From Cryobacterium arcticum (GTDB lineage: Bacteria; Actinomycetota; Actinomycetes; Actinomycetales; Microbacteriaceae), in the NCBI RefSeq assembly GCF_003185895.1, contig NZ_QHLY01000012.1:1240001-1304000 (forward strand): a stretch of 64,000 bases of DNA, written 5' to 3'. Positions 45,818 through 54,281 of the stretch are shown here, one piece after another (position 1 is the first letter of the stretch; each line of letters opens with the position of its first letter). A program made the position numbers and the translations under genes. The notes under the pieces were generated by a model that made no database searches, was not told where the DNA came from, and saw only the letters and a program-made list of their open reading frames with translations.

Positions 45818-47257
45818 CTACCGGGAGCTCAGGACGTGCTGGAGCCAGGAGAAACTTTGCTTGGGGGTGCGCGGGCGGGACGGGTCGGTGAAGTCGACGT
45901 ACACCAGGCCGAAGCGCTGGGTGTAGCCGGCGGCCCACTCGAAGTTGTCCAGCAGGGACCAGATGATGTAGCCGCGCAGGTCGACGCCCTCGGCCGGGCC
46001 GCCGGGGGCGACGGCCTCCACAGCGGCGAGCAGGTGTTCGGCGAGGTAGTCGATCCGGGCGAGGTCGGTGACGGTGCCGTCCCGGTCGGCCCGGTCGGGG
46101 AAGCTGGCGCCGCCCTCGGTGATGTACACCGGCGGCAGGGCCTCGGCGTAGCGGTCCCGCAGCTCGGTCAGCACCACGAGCAGGTATTCCGGTGCGTTCG
46201 GCCAGCCGAACCCGGTCACCGGATGTTCGCGGAACGGCTCGAAGTGGAACGGGAGCCGGTTCATGGCCGGGCTGCTCCCATCCGGGCTGACCGGGCCGCC
46301 GGCACCTGCCGCCACGCGGGTGGGCTGGTAGTAGTTCAGGCCGTAGAAGTCCAGGCTCTGGTGGATGGTGCGGAGGTCGTCGGGTTCGATCTCGTGCAGG
46401 AAGCGCAACTCGTTCTCGAACACGCCTGCCGGGTCCGGGTACCGGCCGAGCAGCACCGGGTCGGCGAAGAGCCGGTTGTGCAGCAGGTCGTAGAGGGCGG
46501 CCGCGTCTCGGTCGGCCTCCCGGTCGGTGGCCGGCTGCACCGGGGAGTGCACGTTCGCCAGGCCGATCTGGCCGCGCACATCCGCCGCTCGCAGGGCCTG
46601 CACGGCCAGGCCGTGGCCGAGGAGTTGGTGGTGCGCCGCCGGCAGCGCGTCGAACAAAAGGGTCTCCCCCGGCGCGTGGATGCCGAGGGCGTATCCGTTG
46701 AAGGTGACCGTGGCCGGTTCGTTCACGGTGACCCAGGCGTCGATACGGTCGCCGAAGACCTCGCCCATCTGGTTCGCGTAATCGCCGAACCGTTGCGCGG
46801 TGTCGCGGTTCAGCCACTGGCCGCGCAGCGCCACCGGGGTGTCCCAGTGGTGCAGGGTCGCCATCGGGCTGATGCCGTTGCCGAGCAACTCGTCGAGCAA
46901 CCGATCGTAGAAGGCCACCCCGGCGCGGTTGAGCGAACCGCGACCGTCGGGCTGCAGGCGCGGCCAGGCGAAGGAGAACCGGTAGATGTCGGCGCCGAGT
47001 TCGCGGAGCAGGGTGACGTCTTCGCTCAGCTTGCCGACGTGGTCGGTCGACACCGAGGCGTTCTGGCCGTCCAGGATGCGGCCCTTCTGCCGGGTGAAGG
47101 CATCCCACGTCGATTCACCGCGGCCGCCGTCGCGAGCGCCGCCCTCGATCTGGAAGGCCGAGGTGGCGGTGCCGATCCGGAATCCGGTGGGCAGCCGGTC
47201 GCCCAGCTCCCCCGCCCGGTGCTGCCAGGCGCGGGACGCTGGGGTGTTGCTGCTCAT
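45818..47257 (-). CDS. GH1 beta-glucosidase
   Basis: 479 residues from ATG 47257. GH1 features: FRIGTATSAFQIEGG, STWDAF, the acid/base Glu180 in TVNEPATV, NYYQPTR, and the nucleophile Glu381 in YITEGGASF. In most GH1 enzymes the nucleophile motif is (I/V)TENG; here Asn is Gly. WSLLDNFEWAAGYTQRFGLVYVDF near the end completes the +1/-1 site. It cleaves beta-glucosides or related sugars in the cytoplasm. It is the last gene of a five-gene overlapping operon with an MFS transporter and a flavin oxidase. Confidence 0.93.
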   Translation of the reverse strand: MSSNTPASRAWQHRAGELGDRLPTGFRIGTATSAFQIEGGARDGGRGESTWDAFTRQKGRILDGQNASVSTDHVGKLSEDVTLLRELGADIYRFSFAWPRLQPDGRGSLNRAGVAFYDRLLDELLGNGISPMATLHHWDTPVALRGQWLNRDTAQRFGDYANQMGEVFGDRIDAWVTVNEPATVTFNGYALGIHAPGETLLFDALPAAHHQLLGHGLAVQALRAADVRGQIGLANVHSPVQPATDREADRDAAALYDLLHNRLFADPVLLGRYPDPAGVFENELRFLHEIEPDDLRTIHQSLDFYGLNYYQPTRVAAGAGGPVSPDGSSPAMNRLPFHFEPFREHPVTGFGWPNAPEYLLVVLTELRDRYAEALPPVYITEGGASFPDRADRDGTVTDLARIDYLAEHLLAAVEAVAPGGPAEGVDLRGYIIWSLLDNFEWAAGYTQRFGLVYVDFTDPSRPRTPKQSFSWLQHVLSSR

Positions 47258-48564
47258 CGGCCGAGGACTCTTTCCAGGTAACGGTTGGCGAAGCGACGCT
47301 CGGGATCGAGCCGGTCCCGCACGGCGAGGAAGTCGTCGAAGTGCGGGTAGACCGCCCGGAGGGAGTCGGCGTCGAGATTGTGCATCTTCCCCCAGTGTGG
47401 GCGACCGTCGTGCGCACGCATAATCGCCTCCACGGCGGCGAAGTACTCGCGCGGGTTCTCCCGGTAGTACTTGTGCACGGCGATGTACCCGGTGGCGCGG
47501 CCCTGGCCGGTGGAGAGCCAGATGTCGTCGGCCGCGGCCGAGCGCACCTCGAGCGGGAAGGAGATGCGCCAGCCGCGTTTGTCGATCAGTGCGCGCACCT
47601 CGCGGAGGGCTTCCGGCACCTGCTCCAGCGGCAGGGCATATTCCATCTCGTGGAACCGCACCGTGCGGTGCGTGACGAACACCCGGTGGGAGAGGTCGGT
47701 GAAGTCGCGGTGGCTGGTCAGCCTGTCGGCGAGGCGGTTCACCGGCGGCACCAGCGGCCGCAGCACGGTGCCGGCGGCGCAGGTGACCCGGTAGACACCG
47801 TTGGCGAGCAGTTCGTCGTCGACCCATCGGCTGAACCGGCCGAGAGGCTGCCGGGCGGCGTCGGCGGGCAACCGGGTGTTGGTCTTGGTCAGGGCGGTGT
47901 CGGTGTGTGGAAACCAGTAGAACTCGAAGTGGTCGACGGCGGCGCTGCGTTCGCCGAACGCGGCCAGCACGGCATCGAGCGGTTCGGGGGTCTCCACGGC
48001 GTGCAGCAGGTAGGCGGGCACGCACTGCAGGGTGAGGTCGACCAGGATGCCGAGCGCGCCGAGGCCGAGCCGCACAGCGGGCAGCAACTCGGCGTTCTCG
48101 GTCGCGGAGACGCGGAGCAGGCTGCCGTCGCCGGTGACGAGGGTGACCCCCACGATCTGGTCGGTCAGGCCGCGGAAGGCGGCCCCGGTGCCGTGCGTGC
48201 CGGTGGAGGTGGCACCGGCGAGAGTCTGCCGGTCGACGTCGCCCATGTTCTCCAGCGCCAGACCGTATGGTTTCAGCAGCGACGGCAGCTGGTGCAGGTG
48301 GGTGCCGGCGGCCAGGGTGACCCGGCCGCGGGCTTCGTCGACGTCGATCACGCCGCTGAACGCCAGGTCGAGTTGCACGCCGGGGCTCAGGGCGATGCCC
48401 GAGAAGCTATGGCCGGCGCCGACGGCCTTGATGCGCATGCCGGCGCGACCCGCGGCGAGCACGGCGCGCTGCACGGCGCCGGCGCTGGTGGGCCGCTCCA
48501 CCCGGGCGGGCACCACCGATTCGCTGCGGGACCAGTTCTGCCAGCGGGCACCGGAGGCCGTCAC
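47254..48564 (-). CDS. FAD-linked aldonolactone/alditol oxidase-like enzyme
   Basis: 436 residues. An N-terminal FAD-binding (VAO/PCMH) domain with PARVERPTSAGAVQRAV and AVGAGHSFSGIAL is followed by a C-terminal ALO domain with GRPHWGKMHNLD. His52 in GHSF matches the histidine that carries covalent FAD in alditol oxidase and gulonolactone oxidase. Such enzymes oxidise sugar lactones or sugar alcohols with oxygen or another acceptor. The start GTG overlaps the PLP-protein stop, and its own stop overlaps the GH1 start, so it probably acts on the sugar released by GH1 or a derivative. The substrate is unproven. Confidence 0.88.
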   Translation of the reverse strand: MTASGARWQNWSRSESVVPARVERPTSAGAVQRAVLAAGRAGMRIKAVGAGHSFSGIALSPGVQLDLAFSGVIDVDEARGRVTLAAGTHLHQLPSLLKPYGLALENMGDVDRQTLAGATSTGTHGTGAAFRGLTDQIVGVTLVTGDGSLLRVSATENAELLPAVRLGLGALGILVDLTLQCVPAYLLHAVETPEPLDAVLAAFGERSAAVDHFEFYWFPHTDTALTKTNTRLPADAARQPLGRFSRWVDDELLANGVYRVTCAAGTVLRPLVPPVNRLADRLTSHRDFTDLSHRVFVTHRTVRFHEMEYALPLEQVPEALREVRALIDKRGWRISFPLEVRSAAADDIWLSTGQGRATGYIAVHKYYRENPREYFAAVEAIMRAHDGRPHWGKMHNLDADSLRAVYPHFDDFLAVRDRLDPERRFANRYLERVLGR

Positions 48565-49823
48565 AGGAACGCCTTCCCCTCGCCGCGGTAGGTGGGCAGC
48601 ATGTCCACCACCTGCCCGTTGTCGACGACGGCGAATTCATTCAGGTGCTCGCTGAGCTCACCGGACTTGGTGTGCCGCAGCCACACCCGGTCACCGACCC
48701 CAAGCGTCTGGGCCGCGGCGCCGGTGACGGGCGACTGCACCTCGCCGGCCATCTCCCGGGGCACCAGGCGGAGACCCTCCGGCCAGACCAGCCTCGGCGA
48801 CCGGTCGGCCCCGGGCGGGCCCGAGGCGATCCAGCCGCCGCCGAGCAGGGTGGCGGAGGCCGGGGTGGGCTTCCGCACCACCGACAGCGCGAACGCGGCC
48901 GCCGGCGCCGGGGTGAACCCGGAGTAGGTGTCGAACAGGTGGCCGCCGAAGAAACCGCTGCCGGCCGCGATATCGGTCACAGAGGGATCGGCGTGCGTGC
49001 TCTCCAACGACCCGGTCCCGCCGCCGTTCACGAACTCGAGCTCGGCGACCTGCCGCACCGCGGCCACCGCGGCCGCGCGCCTCGCGCTGATGTCGACGAT
49101 CGACCGATTCCGCACCCACCGGTTCAGGCCGCCCTGCACCGGATGTCCGGCGGGCCGGTCGCCGAGGCCCGCGACCTGCGCCTCGTAGGCCATCATGCCC
49201 ACCAGGGCGAAGCCGGGCCGGGAGACGATGGCCAGCGCCAGCGCCCGCGCCTGATCGACCGAGTGCACCGGTGAGCGCCACACGCCCAGGTGCCCGAGCA
49301 CCGGGGCGTTCCAGGACGCGTCCAGTTCGAGGCAGAGCCGGATGGTCTCCCGCCGGCCGGGCGCGACCACAGAGTCGATGAAGTCCAGTTGGTCGAGCGA
49401 GTCGACCATGAGGGTCACCTGGCGGGCGGCAGCGGCGGAGCCGGCCAGGGTGCGGATCGCGTCCCAGTCTGCCGTCGGGTAGCCGACCACGATGTCGTCG
49501 ATGGTCTCGGCCAGCCACAGGGCCTCAGCCAGGGTATAGGCGAGCACGCCGCTGTAGCCCGGCAGGGCGAGGACGGCCTCGAGCACCCCGCGCACCCGCA
49601 GGGACTTGCTGGCCACCCGAATGGGCGTGCCCGCGGCCCGGGCGAGCATGTCGTGGGTGTTGTGCCGCAGGGCGCCGAGGTGCAGGGCACCGACCGGGGT
49701 GGGCAGATCGGCGGTGGCCGCGGTGAGCGCGGGCCAGTAGCTCGCGGGGGTGAGCCACGGCGCCGCATCCGGATGGGTCGCAGCCGTCTGAACGGCCAGG
49801 TCGTGGGCGAGGTTGAGGCTCAT
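48561..49823 (-). CDS. Alanine-racemase-fold PLP protein (amino acid deaminase/aldolase-like)
   Basis: 420 residues. The N-terminal TIM-barrel region carries the probable PLP lysine, Lys73, in RVASKSLRVRGVLEAVL, in the position of the alanine racemase/D-threonine aldolase lysine. GYSGVLAYTLAEALWLA, EFVNGGGTGSLESTH and the C-terminal GDRVWLRHTKSGELSEHLNEFAVV fit the family named amino acid deaminase/aldolase. The reaction is not established. It is coupled by 4-base overlaps to the MFS gene before it and the oxidase gene after it, an unusual setting for a D-amino-acid-type enzyme. Confidence 0.78.
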   Translation of the reverse strand: MSLNLAHDLAVQTAATHPDAAPWLTPASYWPALTAATADLPTPVGALHLGALRHNTHDMLARAAGTPIRVASKSLRVRGVLEAVLALPGYSGVLAYTLAEALWLAETIDDIVVGYPTADWDAIRTLAGSAAAARQVTLMVDSLDQLDFIDSVVAPGRRETIRLCLELDASWNAPVLGHLGVWRSPVHSVDQARALALAIVSRPGFALVGMMAYEAQVAGLGDRPAGHPVQGGLNRWVRNRSIVDISARRAAAVAAVRQVAELEFVNGGGTGSLESTHADPSVTDIAAGSGFFGGHLFDTYSGFTPAPAAAFALSVVRKPTPASATLLGGGWIASGPPGADRSPRLVWPEGLRLVPREMAGEVQSPVTGAAAQTLGVGDRVWLRHTKSGELSEHLNEFAVVDNGQVVDMLPTYRGEGKAFL

Positions 49824-51079
49824 GAGCGCACAGCTTTCACTCGTGTCACCGCGAGGGCCCCGGTGAAGGCAAACAGTCCGGCCGTCAGGAACAGGCCCTG
49901 GAAGCCGCCGGCGAGGGCGACGACGCCCGCACCGATCAGTGGTGCGATCGCCTGGGGCACTGCCGTGGCGATGTTCATGATGCCCAGGTCCTTGCCGCGG
50001 GAGGCCGGATCCGGCAGCACCTGGGTGGCCAGGGCCTGGTCGACCGAGAGGAAACACCCGTAGCCGAGGCCGAGGATGCCGGCGGCCACCATGGCCACCG
50101 TGAGGTCGGGCAGAAAGGCCAGCATCAGGGCCGCCACACCCTGCAGGGCCGAGGCGACGAAAACGAAGACCTTGCGCCGGGCGAGCCTGTCGCTGAGCCG
50201 GCCGAAGCCGAGTGCCGCAACGATCACGAACACCATGTACACCAGGGTGAGCAGGATCAGGTCGTCTTCGGCGTTGGCGTCGTTCAGGCCGAACATCAGG
50301 AAGTACAGCAGCAGGGTGGTGCCGAAGGCGTTGCCGAAGCTCACCAGGACCCGGCTGGTGAGGGTCCAGGCGAAGTCCGGGTTCTCCCGCGGGCTGATCC
50401 ACAGGCTGTCGATCACCCCGGCCAGGGACATCGGTTGGCGCTGTTCCGGCGAGAGCACGGCATCCGGCAACAGCAGGAAGGGCAGGCAGAGCACCAGGAG
50501 CAGCACCGCCACCGCGGCGTAGCCGGCGAACTGGCCGGTGAACAGCAGGGTCACCAGCAGCAAGCCGAGGATGGTGCCGATCGCCTGCGGCGCGGACAGC
50601 CAGCCGGAGACGTACCCGCGCTGGCCGGTGGGCACCTGGTCGGAGATGGTGGCGGTGAGCGCGGCCGTGAGCACGCAGAAGCCGGTGAGGGCCAACGACC
50701 AGAAGACGCCGATGCCCAGCAGGCTGGTTTGCGCGCCGAGCAGCACCAGCGCGGCGGCGAAGAGCACGGCCCCGCCGGCGATCCACGGCCGGCGCCGCCC
50801 GAACCGTGACGTGGTGCGGTCGGAGAGGGCGCCGGTGAGCGGATAGGCCACGATCGCGCAGAGGCCGGCGATGCCGGAGATGATGCCGAACGCGACCACA
50901 CTGTCGACCCAGTTCTCCGGCTGCAGGCGCCGGTCGATCTGGGCGGGCAGCAGCAACTGCACCGGCGTGAGTTGCGCCATCCAGATGCCCAGCCAGGCCG
51001 TCGCGAACGCGGCGATCCAGCGGGCGGGCACCCGGCGGGTGGGCTCGGCGAAGACGGCCGGAACCGCTGGGGCGCTCAC
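49820..51079 (-). CDS. MFS transporter in the GH1/oxidase operon
   Basis: 419 residues from a GTG overlapping the tetR-type stop (GTGA). About 12 hydrophobic segments, with TGALSDRTTSRFGRRRPW and FGRLSDRLARRKVFV as the two MFS loop motifs. VDQALATQVLPDPASRGKDLG matches the same region of the MFS protein at 796-2100, so the two are paralogues, both beside glycosidases. Uptake of the glycoside cut by the downstream GH1 enzyme is the likely role. Confidence 0.87.
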   Translation of the reverse strand: MSAPAVPAVFAEPTRRVPARWIAAFATAWLGIWMAQLTPVQLLLPAQIDRRLQPENWVDSVVAFGIISGIAGLCAIVAYPLTGALSDRTTSRFGRRRPWIAGGAVLFAAALVLLGAQTSLLGIGVFWSLALTGFCVLTAALTATISDQVPTGQRGYVSGWLSAPQAIGTILGLLLVTLLFTGQFAGYAAVAVLLLVLCLPFLLLPDAVLSPEQRQPMSLAGVIDSLWISPRENPDFAWTLTSRVLVSFGNAFGTTLLLYFLMFGLNDANAEDDLILLTLVYMVFVIVAALGFGRLSDRLARRKVFVFVASALQGVAALMLAFLPDLTVAMVAAGILGLGYGCFLSVDQALATQVLPDPASRGKDLGIMNIATAVPQAIAPLIGAGVVALAGGFQGLFLTAGLFAFTGALAVTRVKAVRS

Positions 51080-51699
51080 GCCGGCCGCCCCAGGGCGGCC
51101 ACCGCGTCGGCGATGGTGTCGAGCAGGGCCTCGGTGGCCGGGTCGTCGCGATCGACCAGCCAGGCGATGGTGAGGCCGTCGGTGAGGGCAATGAGCAGCC
51201 GCGCCACCTCGTCGACGGGCCGGAGCCAGACCGACCCGCTCTGTTCGGCCGCGCTGGTCAGGGCGAGCGCCGCGAGGGCGTGGTAGCCCTCGTATTGCTC
51301 CCGCGCCAGCGGCTGCATCTCGGCCGAGCGCAGGGCGTACTGGGTGAGTTCGAGCATCGCCTTCTCCCGTAACGGGTCCTGGCGCAGGTGCTCGGCGTAC
51401 CGGCCGAGGCCGTGCCGCAGCAGCACGCGCAGCGCCGCCGGGCCGGTCGGGCCATCCAACTCCTCGGCCGGGTCGGGCAGGATGGCGGTGGTCTCGGCGC
51501 GCATGACGTGCCGGATCAGCTCGGTCATCAGCTCGTCGCGGCTCGCGAAGGCGTAGTGGAAGCTTGCCAGTGACATGCCCGCCTCGGCGACGATCGCGCG
51601 GGTGGTGGCCTGCGCCACTCCCCGGTCGGCGACGACCCTGAGCGCTGCGAGCACGAGGGCGCTGCGCCGGTCTGCGGCCGTCATCCTGGTCATGGTCAC
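51076..51699 (-). CDS. TetR-family regulator heading the GH1/oxidase operon
   Basis: 207 residues. The N-terminal helix-turn-helix covers about 10-57 (ALVLAALRVVADRGVAQATTRAIVAEAGMSLASFHYAF), followed by a helical ligand-binding domain. It is the first gene of the operon, with GAGGTGACC before ATG 51699, so it probably represses its own transcript. A 10-bp palindrome GCACCGGTGC at 51730-51739 is a weak operator candidate. The ligand is unknown. Confidence 0.88.
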   Translation of the reverse strand: MTMTRMTAADRRSALVLAALRVVADRGVAQATTRAIVAEAGMSLASFHYAFASRDELMTELIRHVMRAETTAILPDPAEELDGPTGPAALRVLLRHGLGRYAEHLRQDPLREKAMLELTQYALRSAEMQPLAREQYEGYHALAALALTSAAEQSGSVWLRPVDEVARLLIALTDGLTIAWLVDRDDPATEALLDTIADAVAALGRPA

Positions 51700-51846
51700 C
51701 TCGCTCGGACTGGCAGAAACAGGTGTGGGGCACCGGTGCAGTGGGGCAGATGACCCAGTCGCCAGTATGCCGCAGACGGCACCGTCTCGCTCGGATTTCG
51801 GCGCCGTGGCCGAATCCGCGCATTCGCCGGGCGAAGGCGCGTCACG

Positions 51847-51890: not shown

Positions 51891-54281
51891 ATGGAAACGC
51901 ACGACCAGATCTGCGCGCACGGGCCGAACCAACGATCCCGTCGGCGTCCCTGGCGCGCCTCGATACTCTTCGCCGTGCTCACCGGCCTGCTCGTTGCCGG
52001 GCCGCTCCTGGCCGTTCCCGCGCCGGCCCTGGCCGCACCGGCAGCGGCAGCCACCGCCACGCCGAGCCCCACCCCCACGCCGACGCCCAGTCCAACCCCC
52101 ACGCCGACCGGCACGACGGTGCCCCGGGCGACCGACGCTCCCGCGCCGAGCGCCGCTCCTGAACAGTCCGTCACGCCCTCCCCGTCTGCCGCGCCGTCCG
52201 CCACGCCGTCGCCCACCCCGACCCCGTCGGCCGCCCCGACCCCGACGCCCACGCCAACGCCAACGCCGACACCGACGCCCACGCCCACCGACACCCCGAC
52301 GCCCACGCCGACCCCGGAGCCCTCCGCGCCCACGATCGACGGACCGTCGCCCGATGCCTTCATCAGCGGATCGGCCACGGTTGGTGGCAGCCGGGACCCC
52401 GACCAGGAGATCCAGGTGCTCTCCCCCACCGGCGGTGACCCGCTCTGTATCGTCGCCCCCAACGGCACGAACAGCTGGAAGTGCATCGGCCTGAGCCTGC
52501 CGAGCGGCCCGGCCGTCACCCTGCGCGCGGTGGTCACCGGAAACGCCGATCTGGCCGCATCCGTCACCGTCCGGGTGCTGCAGGCGCCGACGGTCACGGG
52601 CGGCAACACCGGCCAGCCCTCCTCGAACGGCCTGGTGCGCGGCACCGGCTACCCCGGAGCGACAGTCACCGCCACTCTGTCCAGCGGCCAGCGCTGCTCG
52701 TTCACGGTGGATGGCTCCGGCGCCTGGGCCTGCCTGATGCAGGGCCTGACCAGCGGCTCTGAGCAGATCACCGCTTCCCAGCAGACCGGTTTCAGCAAGC
52801 CGGAGTCCTCCCCGGCCAGCAACCCGGTCACCCTCGTGATCGACGTCGACGCACCACCGGCCCCGGTCGTGGCCGGGCCGGTCGCCGGCGCGACCCTGGC
52901 ACTGTCGGGCTCGCAGTACTTCGGCTCTGGTGAGAACGGCGCCACCGTCACGGTCTTCGCCGGCGCCTACTCGCTCTGCAGCACCGTCGTCTCCGGCGGA
53001 ACCTGGTCGTGCGCCGGTGGCGCGGTCGCCGACGGCGCCTACGATCTGCGCGCCGTGCAGCAGGATGCGGCGGGCAACGTCAGTGCCGGCAGCGCCGCTA
53101 TCCGGGTGGCTTACGGCACCGGTACCCCAAGCCCCACCCCCACGGCCACCCCGACACCGACGCCGTCGCCGACCAAAACACCCCAGCCGAGCGCCACCCC
53201 GACGCCCGCCGCCCCGGGAACCCCGTCGGCGACGCCTACTCCGGCCGTACCGGCACCGACCGATCCCGATGACCCGGCCACGGCGCTGCCGCCGGAGCTG
53301 ACCGTGCCGGGCGGCTGGAATGACCCCACCCCGTTCAGCACCGCCGTGATCGTGCCCTGGACCGTGGCGCAATTCCCCTGGCTACAGGCGTCGCTGCTCA
53401 CCCTCGGGGCGCTCGGGTTGCTGGTGGTGCCCGCCCGTCTGCTCGCCGGCACCGTCGCTCGCGCCCGGAACGGAAGGCCGCTGTTCAACCGGCACCGGTT
53501 CTCCGGCCGCAACCGGGCCGGCGAAGAATTCGAGGTGGCACCGACGGTACGCCTGAACAGGTGGGTGGTGGGTGGCGGCGCCATCTTGGCCGCCGCGGCA
53601 CTGGTGCTCCTCTCCGGACCCGTCACCAGCGCCCCGGCCTACCTGCGGCTGTTTCTGGCCGTGGTGCTCGCGCTCAGTGTGGTGAACGCTGTGGCGACCC
53701 TGCTGCCGCAATGGTGGGGATCCCGGGCGCTGCACGTCGAGGTCGATGTCACTTTCCTGCCGCGGTACCTGCTGCTCGTCGCGGTCACGGCGCTGGGCTC
53801 GCGCGCGTTCGACCTGCACCCGGCGCTGCTCTTCGGCCTGCTCGGCAGCGTGGTGGTGACTCAGGGACCGGTGGCGGGTCAGCGCGGCCGCCTCGCTGCC
53901 ATCCGTGCCGGCAGTCTGCTCGCGCTCGGGCTGGTGGCCCTGCTGCTGGTGGGAGTGCTCCCGCCGGCGGACACCTTCGTGAGCGCCTTGGCTGCCGAGT
54001 TCGCCAACACCATCGTGCTGGCGTCGATCGGCTCGGCCGTGCTCGTACTCATTCCGGTCGGCAGCACCAGCGGGCGCAGCATCCTGGCCTGGTCACCGCC
54101 GATCTGGGCGGCCTTGGCCGTGCCCGCGTTCCTCACCCTGTTCGTGCTGCTCTCGCCGATGCTGCCCCGCTGGCAGGGCGACGGCACCGTGACGCTGCTC
54201 TGGCTGGTCGCGGCCGCCTTCGCCGCGGTGAGCGTGGCGGTGTGGGCGTGGCAGCGCTGGGTGGTGCCCGCGCTCCGCTGA
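51891..54281 (+). CDS. Large Pro/Thr-rich protein with Ig-like repeats and polytopic C-terminus
   Basis: 796 residues; I recognise no named family. Residues 24-48 are a signal-like hydrophobic segment ending in ALAA. Residues 53-148 are Pro/Thr/Ser-rich with long PTPTPT runs. Three repeats of bacterial Ig-like type follow (about 149-232, 233-318 and 319-409; [28 protein letters not shown] and [28 protein letters not shown]), each with a Cys pair. A second PT-rich linker (410-460) leads to seven or eight hydrophobic segments from about 497 to 790. The Ig-like part should be outside the cell and the C-terminus in the membrane. It may link the wall to a membrane sensor or transporter. Confidence 0.8.
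52047..52330 (+). repeat. Low-complexity coding repeat (Pro-Thr)
   Basis: Near-tandem CCGACGCCGACC-type units encode the first PTPTPT linker. Such tracts are prone to length change by slippage. Confidence 0.85.

Follow-up and report, generated by a model that had tools for sequence, protein, structure and literature searches.

The sphBCD genes of Pseudomonas aeruginosa (PA5328-PA5326) are induced by sphingosine via SphR, and oxidation of sphingosine combined with aldolase cleavage was proposed, according to the sections that we consulted of three reports (PMC3900636, PMC5150637, PMC11893366). In the consulted sections of the last of these, a 2025 study, sphingosine builds up in the absence of sphBC, and co-occurrence hits in unspecified Actinobacteria are mentioned without follow-up (PMC11893366, section 20). 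Our search of the open-licence literature found no actinobacterial sphingosine module consisting of a pyridoxal 5'-phosphate (PLP) enzyme and an oxidase. Here, we describe a putative five-gene operon in a 64,000-nucleotide stretch of Cryobacterium arcticum contig NZ_QHLY01000012.1 (referred to below as the window), which contains genes for a PLP protein and a flavin adenine dinucleotide (FAD) oxidase. Our preferred, tentative reading (probability, about 0.48) is that this pair constitutes a module for the oxidation and cleavage of a 2-amino-alcohol, probably a sphingoid base, and is the actinobacterial counterpart of SphC/SphD.

The five genes are all on the minus strand, running from 51699 to 45818, and include those for a transporter of the major facilitator superfamily (MFS) and a protein of glycoside hydrolase family 1 (GH1). 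They are listed here together with one upstream element.

51076..51699, minus strand: TetR regulator with a BetI-type C-terminal domain, first gene of the operon (Pfam TetR_N and TetR_C_6, above cut-off)
49820..51079, minus strand: MFS transporter (MFS_1, PF07690, 107.8 bits)
48561..49823, minus strand: fold-type-III PLP protein, D-threonine-aldolase/SphD-like, without the metal domain (Ala_racemase_N, PF01168, only)
47254..48564, minus strand: ALO-family FAD oxidoreductase (TIGR01679), SphC-like (FAD_binding_4, PF01565, and ALO, PF04030)
45818..47257, minus strand: GH1 protein with both E180 and E381 (Glyco_hydro_1, PF00232, 440 bits)
51817..51841, no strand assigned: inverted repeat with 10-base arms (9 of 10 paired) and a spacer of 5, between the TetR gene and a divergent gene; candidate operator

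Consecutive genes overlap by 4 bases, as read in the sequence (GTGA at 51079-51076, ATGA at 49823-49820, GTGA at 48564-48561, and ATGA at 47257-47254), and these overlaps support co-translation of the five genes. The genes, coordinates, and overlaps given in a preliminary description of this DNA, made from the letters alone, were borne out, as were its five family assignments in Pfam and NCBIfam searches, and a common operon is likely.

Relation to sphBCD and other described systems

An sph locus with an annotated SphR was located in a P. aeruginosa record (NZ_CP070468.1, "plasmid p1B17416," 92.8 kb; L147). This plasmid may be a mislabelled piece of the chromosome, because the housekeeping genes gmk, rph, pyrE, and argB surround the sph locus. 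Common to both loci is an ALO oxidase gene adjoining, on one strand, a gene for a PLP protein with Ala_racemase_N as its only domain; SphD, like the window PLP protein, has no PF14031 domain or metal motif and carries K-S-L at the PLP lysine. The two oxidases are 36% identical over 435 amino acids. The loci differ in that P. aeruginosa has a cytochrome c (SphB), SphA, SphR, and the oxidase gene before the PLP gene, whereas the window has TetR, MFS, and GH1 genes instead; furthermore, the residue at the position of A113 in GALDH is Ala in SphC but Gly in the window oxidase. Judged by its genes, the window system would work like sphBCD without strictly being a member. The preliminary description knew of no described pathway with this gene set, which is true of the five genes together but not of the PLP/oxidase pair, as this resembles sphC/sphD.

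A mycobacterial set provides a second comparison. In Mycobacterium riyadhense, genes annotated as "amino acid deaminase/aldolase," M28 peptidase, and "D-arabinono-1,4-lactone oxidase" follow one another, and the pair is homologous to that of the window (47% and 44% identical). It differs in that the M28 peptidase gene separates the pair and no GH1, MFS, or TetR gene is annotated beside it. The Rv1769-Rv1771 region of Mycobacterium tuberculosis has this layout.

With the window PLP sequence alone, a PDB search returned no relative. A profile search with its family retrieved BhcC, D-threonine aldolases, D-threo-3-hydroxyaspartate dehydratase, and D-serine dehydratase, and a Foldseek search with an AlphaFold2 (AF2) model (predicted local distance difference test [pLDDT] score, 91.2) gave BhcC (6qkb) and D-threonine aldolase (4v15) as the best matches, with template modeling (TM) scores of 0.71-0.83 and about 20% identity. 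The window protein shares fold type III and the PLP lysine with the D-threonine aldolase/D-serine dehydratase/BhcC family but differs from it in that there is no Pfam match to the metal-binding domain PF14031 and no H-x-D/C motif, with R-H-x-K-x-G-E instead. All 104 sequences compared (window included) have the PLP lysine, K73, and H384 and K386 are each found in 103. H384-x-K386 presumably occupies the position of the metal-binding H-x-D/C of fold-type-III aldolases and dehydratases.

The window oxidase scores 411.7 bits against TIGR01679 (cut-off, 292.25) and is a relative of the solved alditol (xylitol) oxidase 2vfr. In an alignment of 118 oxidases, which counts the window twice (L145 and WIN), H52 and R341 are invariant, while E339 and K393 are each found in 116; we take H52 to be the covalent-FAD histidine and E-x-R/K to be the active site. 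The GALDH A113 position is Gly in 115 of the 118, the window among them, and is Ala or Pro in the three oxidases that have a clear cytochrome c as a neighbour. A scan for CxxCH around all 118 flagged 11 open reading frames (ORFs), and clear cytochromes were recognized by eye only in L147, L149, and L150, with the ORF flagged in L130 appearing thioredoxin-like. The window oxidase is flanked by the PLP and GH1 proteins, with no dedicated c-type cytochrome adjoining. That this gatekeeper residue tracks the presence of a cytochrome partner is suggestive only, as the solved alditol oxidase has Ala at the position, and two mycobacterial oxidases (L124 and L139) have Gly even though the M. tuberculosis enzyme is described as a dehydrogenase. 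A FastTree phylogeny of 53 oxidases placed SphC in a proteobacterial clade (support, 0.96) and the window oxidase in an actinobacterial one. The root of this tree is a second ALO-family gene of the same genome (G000:C8:97380-98639; L002), whose product is 31% identical to the window oxidase.

Conservation of the PLP/oxidase pair

A search of genome contigs with the window PLP protein as the query yielded 105 relatives, and the best 80 loci were retained. Genus labels in the following counts are taken from record titles; the 14 Williamsia-type loci include one titled Kitasatospora, and the Arthrobacter group includes one titled Sporosarcina. The former (L061, Kitasatospora arboriphila NRRL B-24581) has the gene order of Williamsia muralis (L057) and a ceramidase 96% identical to that of the latter species, the neighbourhood in the Sporosarcina record (L076, Sporosarcina beigongshangi REN13) matches Arthrobacter, and both records look misnamed or contaminated. 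The nearest named relatives of the window PLP protein are from Cryobacterium, with identities of up to 83%.

In 79 of the 80 loci, one stretch carries both the PLP gene and the oxidase gene; in the remaining locus, no oxidase gene was found across 17 kb. The oxidase gene follows the PLP gene on the same strand in 67 loci (with about 0.8 kb between them in two of the Micromonospora type) and is divergent from it in 12 (Geodermatophilaceae and Frankia). An in-frame start codon that yields an exact 4-base PLP/FAD overlap is present in 63/80 loci, which is an upper estimate because the script chooses, among candidate starts, the one closest to the PLP stop; two annotated records, of Tsukamurella and Arthrobacter, carry the overlap as annotated. 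This gene order is not due to chance.

The other three genes are distributed differently. GH1 is found in 21 loci, comprising 19 from Cryobacterium, that of Glaciibacter superstes, and one Rhodoglobus metagenome-assembled genome, all within the Cryobacterium lineage. Another 58 loci have the pair and no GH1 (one of them, L048, ends just past the oxidase gene). Within 4.5 kb of the PLP gene, a TetR relative (>60 bits) occurs in 4/19 Cryobacterium, 13/14 Williamsia-type, and 10/12 Gordonia loci, and an MFS relative (>150 bits) occurs in 5/19 Cryobacterium and 12/14 Williamsia-type loci. All five families are found together in the window and in G. superstes (L033), where the PLP/FAD junction differs from the 4-base overlap. 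According to the preliminary description, its reading would be refuted if the PLP and oxidase genes were never linked to GH1 and MFS genes in relatives. This is not the case: such linkage is seen in Cryobacterium and Glaciibacter and, with regard to MFS, in Williamsia-type loci.

The same pairing was seen in a sample of 246 genomes of the phylum. The PLP protein gave 27 matches, or 26 full-length ones after a partial match (G214) was dropped, and the oxidase gave 48 matches at 1e-40, of which 40 remained as strong after removal of 8 weaker than 1e-90. The oxidase is present in 25 of the 26 PLP-positive genomes versus 15 of the 220 others (Fisher test, 9e-23, without correction for descent). 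Both genes lie within about 1.3 kb in 16 of the 25 genomes (coordinates read by eye) and are apart or on different contigs in nine, seven of which are from one genus with genomes of 7-10 Mb. Judging from these nine genomes, co-occurrence seems to outlast linkage. The conserved core is the pair of PLP protein and ALO-type FAD oxidase; TetR and MFS are optional, and GH1 is a lineage-specific addition.

Fifteen genomes have the oxidase without the PLP gene, and 11 of these were examined (G074, G182, G193, and G194 were left out). In 3/11 (L131, L136, and L137, the last of which was tested for PF14031), the oxidase adjoins a second type of PLP protein, which has H-x-D and belongs to the superfamily of the first. 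That two partner types with a single fold occur with the oxidase is an argument for a common chemistry in two steps. In another genome (G150; L133, 5532-6749), the PLP partner is absent and a class-V aminotransferase, another PLP enzyme, is encoded upstream of the oxidase in the same direction.

Proposed substrate of the pair and competing explanations

We count the linkage in 79/80 loci and the co-occurrence in 25/26 genomes in favor of our preferred reading, and we infer the substrate, the order of reactions, the direction of transport, and the role of GH1 as follows. The FAD enzyme would act on a 2-amino-alcohol, either a sphingoid base or a similar compound, and oxidize its primary alcohol. 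The PLP enzyme would then bind the amino group and perform a retro-aldol cleavage between the carbons that carry the amino and hydroxyl groups, releasing glycine or aminoacetaldehyde and a long-chain aldehyde. The MFS protein may move the substrate or a related toxic amphiphile, which TetR would sense. In Williamsia, the base would be supplied by a ceramidase, and in Cryobacterium, the added GH1 protein may once have removed, or may now only bind, a glucosylated form. By our own reasoning, oxidation of natural (2S,3R)-sphingosine at C1 should give a (2R,3R) hydroxy-amino acid of the D type, the series that these enzymes use. The suggestion in the preliminary description that the PLP protein points to an amino compound is in agreement with such a scheme.

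Gene neighbourhoods provide hints to the substrate. A neutral ceramidase gene lies behind the oxidase gene in 10/80 loci, all of the Williamsia type; one product matches PF04734 with an E value of 4e-157, and the other nine are 63-98% identical to it, while the score against NF041649 is 517.6 bits, below the cut-off of 1200. Among the 246 genomes, ceramidase matches below 1e-100 are confined to five, all of them PLP-positive (P = 9e-6). With regard to glycine cleavage, gcvT is located two genes beyond the oxidase in Tsukamurella, and in Nonomuraea, the genes upstream of the PLP gene include gcvT, gcvH, and one for a serine dehydratase, with the oxidase gene at another place in the record. Two further candidates were dropped. 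An Exo_endo_phos neighbour in Williamsia gave no match in NCBIfam or PDB searches and is therefore not designated a sphingomyelinase here, and a 612-amino-acid ORF behind the Arthrobacter echini pair had no Pfam match and looks to be in the wrong frame.

A number of observations weigh against a sphingoid-base module. In the consulted sections of the 2025 study, the product of SphC is stated as unknown and its direct action on sphingosine as unproven, sphD is dispensable under the conditions tested, and SphC is exported to the periplasm (PMC11893366). The window oxidase starts directly with the FAD domain and falls outside the SphC clade, and the window PLP protein (P0003) is 22% identical to SphD. 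The aldolase step is uncertain because the PLP protein has no H-x-D/C metal site of the kind present in known D-threonine aldolases. The operon has no gene for a cytochrome c, SphR (AraC), or SphA porin (for SphR and SphA, the search was confined to the operon). As for the ceramidase, adjacency is limited to one lineage, only 5/26 PLP-positive genomes have a strong match, matches above the Pfam cut-off are found in 6/26 PLP-positive genomes versus 9/220 others (P = 0.002), and the genome of C. arcticum itself gave no match to PF04734 in a search that had no separate positive control but used the same model that did find matches in the 246-genome scan. Finally, relatives of the ALO oxidase adjoin EutH in Paracoccus or DUF819 in Ruegeria and Yoonia, which would allow short amino alcohols as substrates.

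This last point raises the possibility that the pair performs the same chemistry with other substrates, namely, amino alcohols that are short or polar, or amino-alditols, in place of sphingoid bases. The kinship with xylitol oxidase and the absence of a PF04734 match in the genome are also in its favor, but we consider it somewhat unlikely, as the sole degradative partner that recurs beside the pair in the 80 loci is the ceramidase (in one lineage) and the relative studied in most detail is linked to sphingosine. Decidedly less probable is the route put forward in the preliminary description, in which an unusual glycoside or an amino-sugar conjugate is imported, hydrolyzed by GH1, and oxidized. 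MFS, GH1, and oxidase genes are indeed encoded together, and the window GH1 protein retains both catalytic glutamates. The families of that proposal stand. Its pathway is weakened: the GH1 component is outside the conserved core, being found in 21 of the 80 loci, and the catalytic nucleophile has been lost in 22 of 26 GH1 copies while the operon persists. Glycoside hydrolysis therefore cannot be the conserved role. An oxidative amino-sugar route via glucosaminate was also dropped, as about 20 scanned neighbour proteins included no deacetylase, lactonase, or sugar-acid gene product. Aldonolactone or vitamin C type chemistry with an incidental PLP neighbour is highly improbable and was set aside with standard sugar routes, for although Rv1771 of M. 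tuberculosis belongs to the same Pfam family and is reported as an L-gulonolactone dehydrogenase in the consulted part of the source (PMC11505616), its activity there is weak (Km, 5.5 mM; Vmax, 0.041 umol/min/mg) with an enzyme devoid of flavin, and the near-constant PLP pairing would be left unexplained.

A sphingoid-base module would point to a function for a family whose name still refers to sugar lactones. The biochemical mechanism is stated as open in print (PMC11893366, section 22, in the part consulted), and the actinobacterial pair is compact, widespread, and without a cytochrome partner in the operon, which would make its chemistry accessible to direct assay using proteins from harmless bacteria.

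The GH1 protein and the flanks of the operon

The window GH1 protein resembles the GH1 beta-glucosidases in matching PF00232 and in having both glutamates, with the acid/base corresponding to E180 and the nucleophile to E381 in an alignment to the solved enzyme 8znv. It differs in having TEGG in place of TENG, and its score against the beta-glucosidase equivalog TIGR03356 (469.3 bits) is below the cut-off of 478.5. Hydrolysis by this copy is possible. We compared 26 GH1 copies from Cryobacterium-lineage loci, that is, 29 less L040 and L042 (short) and L094 (in two frames). E381 is gone in 22 of the 26, the exceptions being the window, L033, L043, and L112, and E180 is kept in 10. On a tree of the PLP and FAD proteins, in which some nodes are weak, E381 was lost three times independently if regain is disallowed, an assumption, and Fitch parsimony gives two changes. 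A myrosinase-like GH1 was rejected, since myrosinases lack the acid/base and retain the nucleophile, and here mainly the reverse is seen.

The ratios of nonsynonymous to synonymous substitution rates (dN/dS), calculated as pairwise Nei-Gojobori means within hand-picked clades, suggest that the copies without the nucleophile are still under purifying selection. In five such groups, the mean dN/dS of GH1 is 0.12-0.16 versus 0.09-0.28 for the partner genes; in groups A to D, GH1 has the lowest value of the three genes. Q36, Y309, E440, and W441, which we take to be sugar-binding positions, are invariant across the 26 copies, and H137 is changed only in L111. It seems from these data that hydrolysis by the usual mechanism is dispensable in most of the genus and that the GH1 protein is not. 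Klotho-type pseudo-glycosidases offer a parallel, and no GH1 pseudo-enzyme in Cryobacterium was found in our open-licence literature search. The genus thus offers a series of GH1 proteins in which a catalytic residue is lost and selection is maintained.

A more specific proposal, which we think rather unlikely in its entirety, is that GH1 in Cryobacterium has turned into a conserved nonhydrolytic protein (glycolipid-binding, regulatory, or transferase-like) serving a cytosolic, cytochrome-free, oxygen-using sphingoid-base oxidation module with a metal-free C-C lyase as the PLP partner; the mycobacterial core pair would then represent a sphingoid-base route and not vitamin C synthesis. A plant GH1 enzyme that acts on glucosylceramide is on record (PMC8571087, in the part consulted). 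Alternatively, GH1 may simply be decaying at the end of the operon. The two-frame match in Cryobacterium breve (L094), the changes at H137 or W138 in that clade, and group E, a single pair in which the dN/dS of GH1 (0.133) exceeds those of FAD (0.089) and PLP (0.099), are consistent with decay. The low dN/dS in the five groups without the nucleophile and the retained positions described above argue against it, as does the higher dN/dS of the four copies that keep the nucleophile (0.26, compared with 0.24 and 0.21 in the partner genes, at a dS near 1), and we consider decay unlikely. On the chromosome of C. breve, the matches to PLP and to GH1 are each split into pieces, so that both genes look broken, and the oxidase matches in one piece.

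Elsewhere in the operon, the window MFS protein (49820-51079) is 82-85% identical to its relatives in the Cryobacterium lineage, with values of 73-77% for PLP and 69-74% for GH1 in the same loci, and many congener loci have no close relative of it. Lateral exchange of the MFS gene is possible. Upstream, a divergent gene on the plus strand (51891-54281) encodes a 796-amino-acid product with long Pro/Thr/Ser runs after an apparent signal sequence, and its ORF cluster was found again upstream of the operon in 26 loci.

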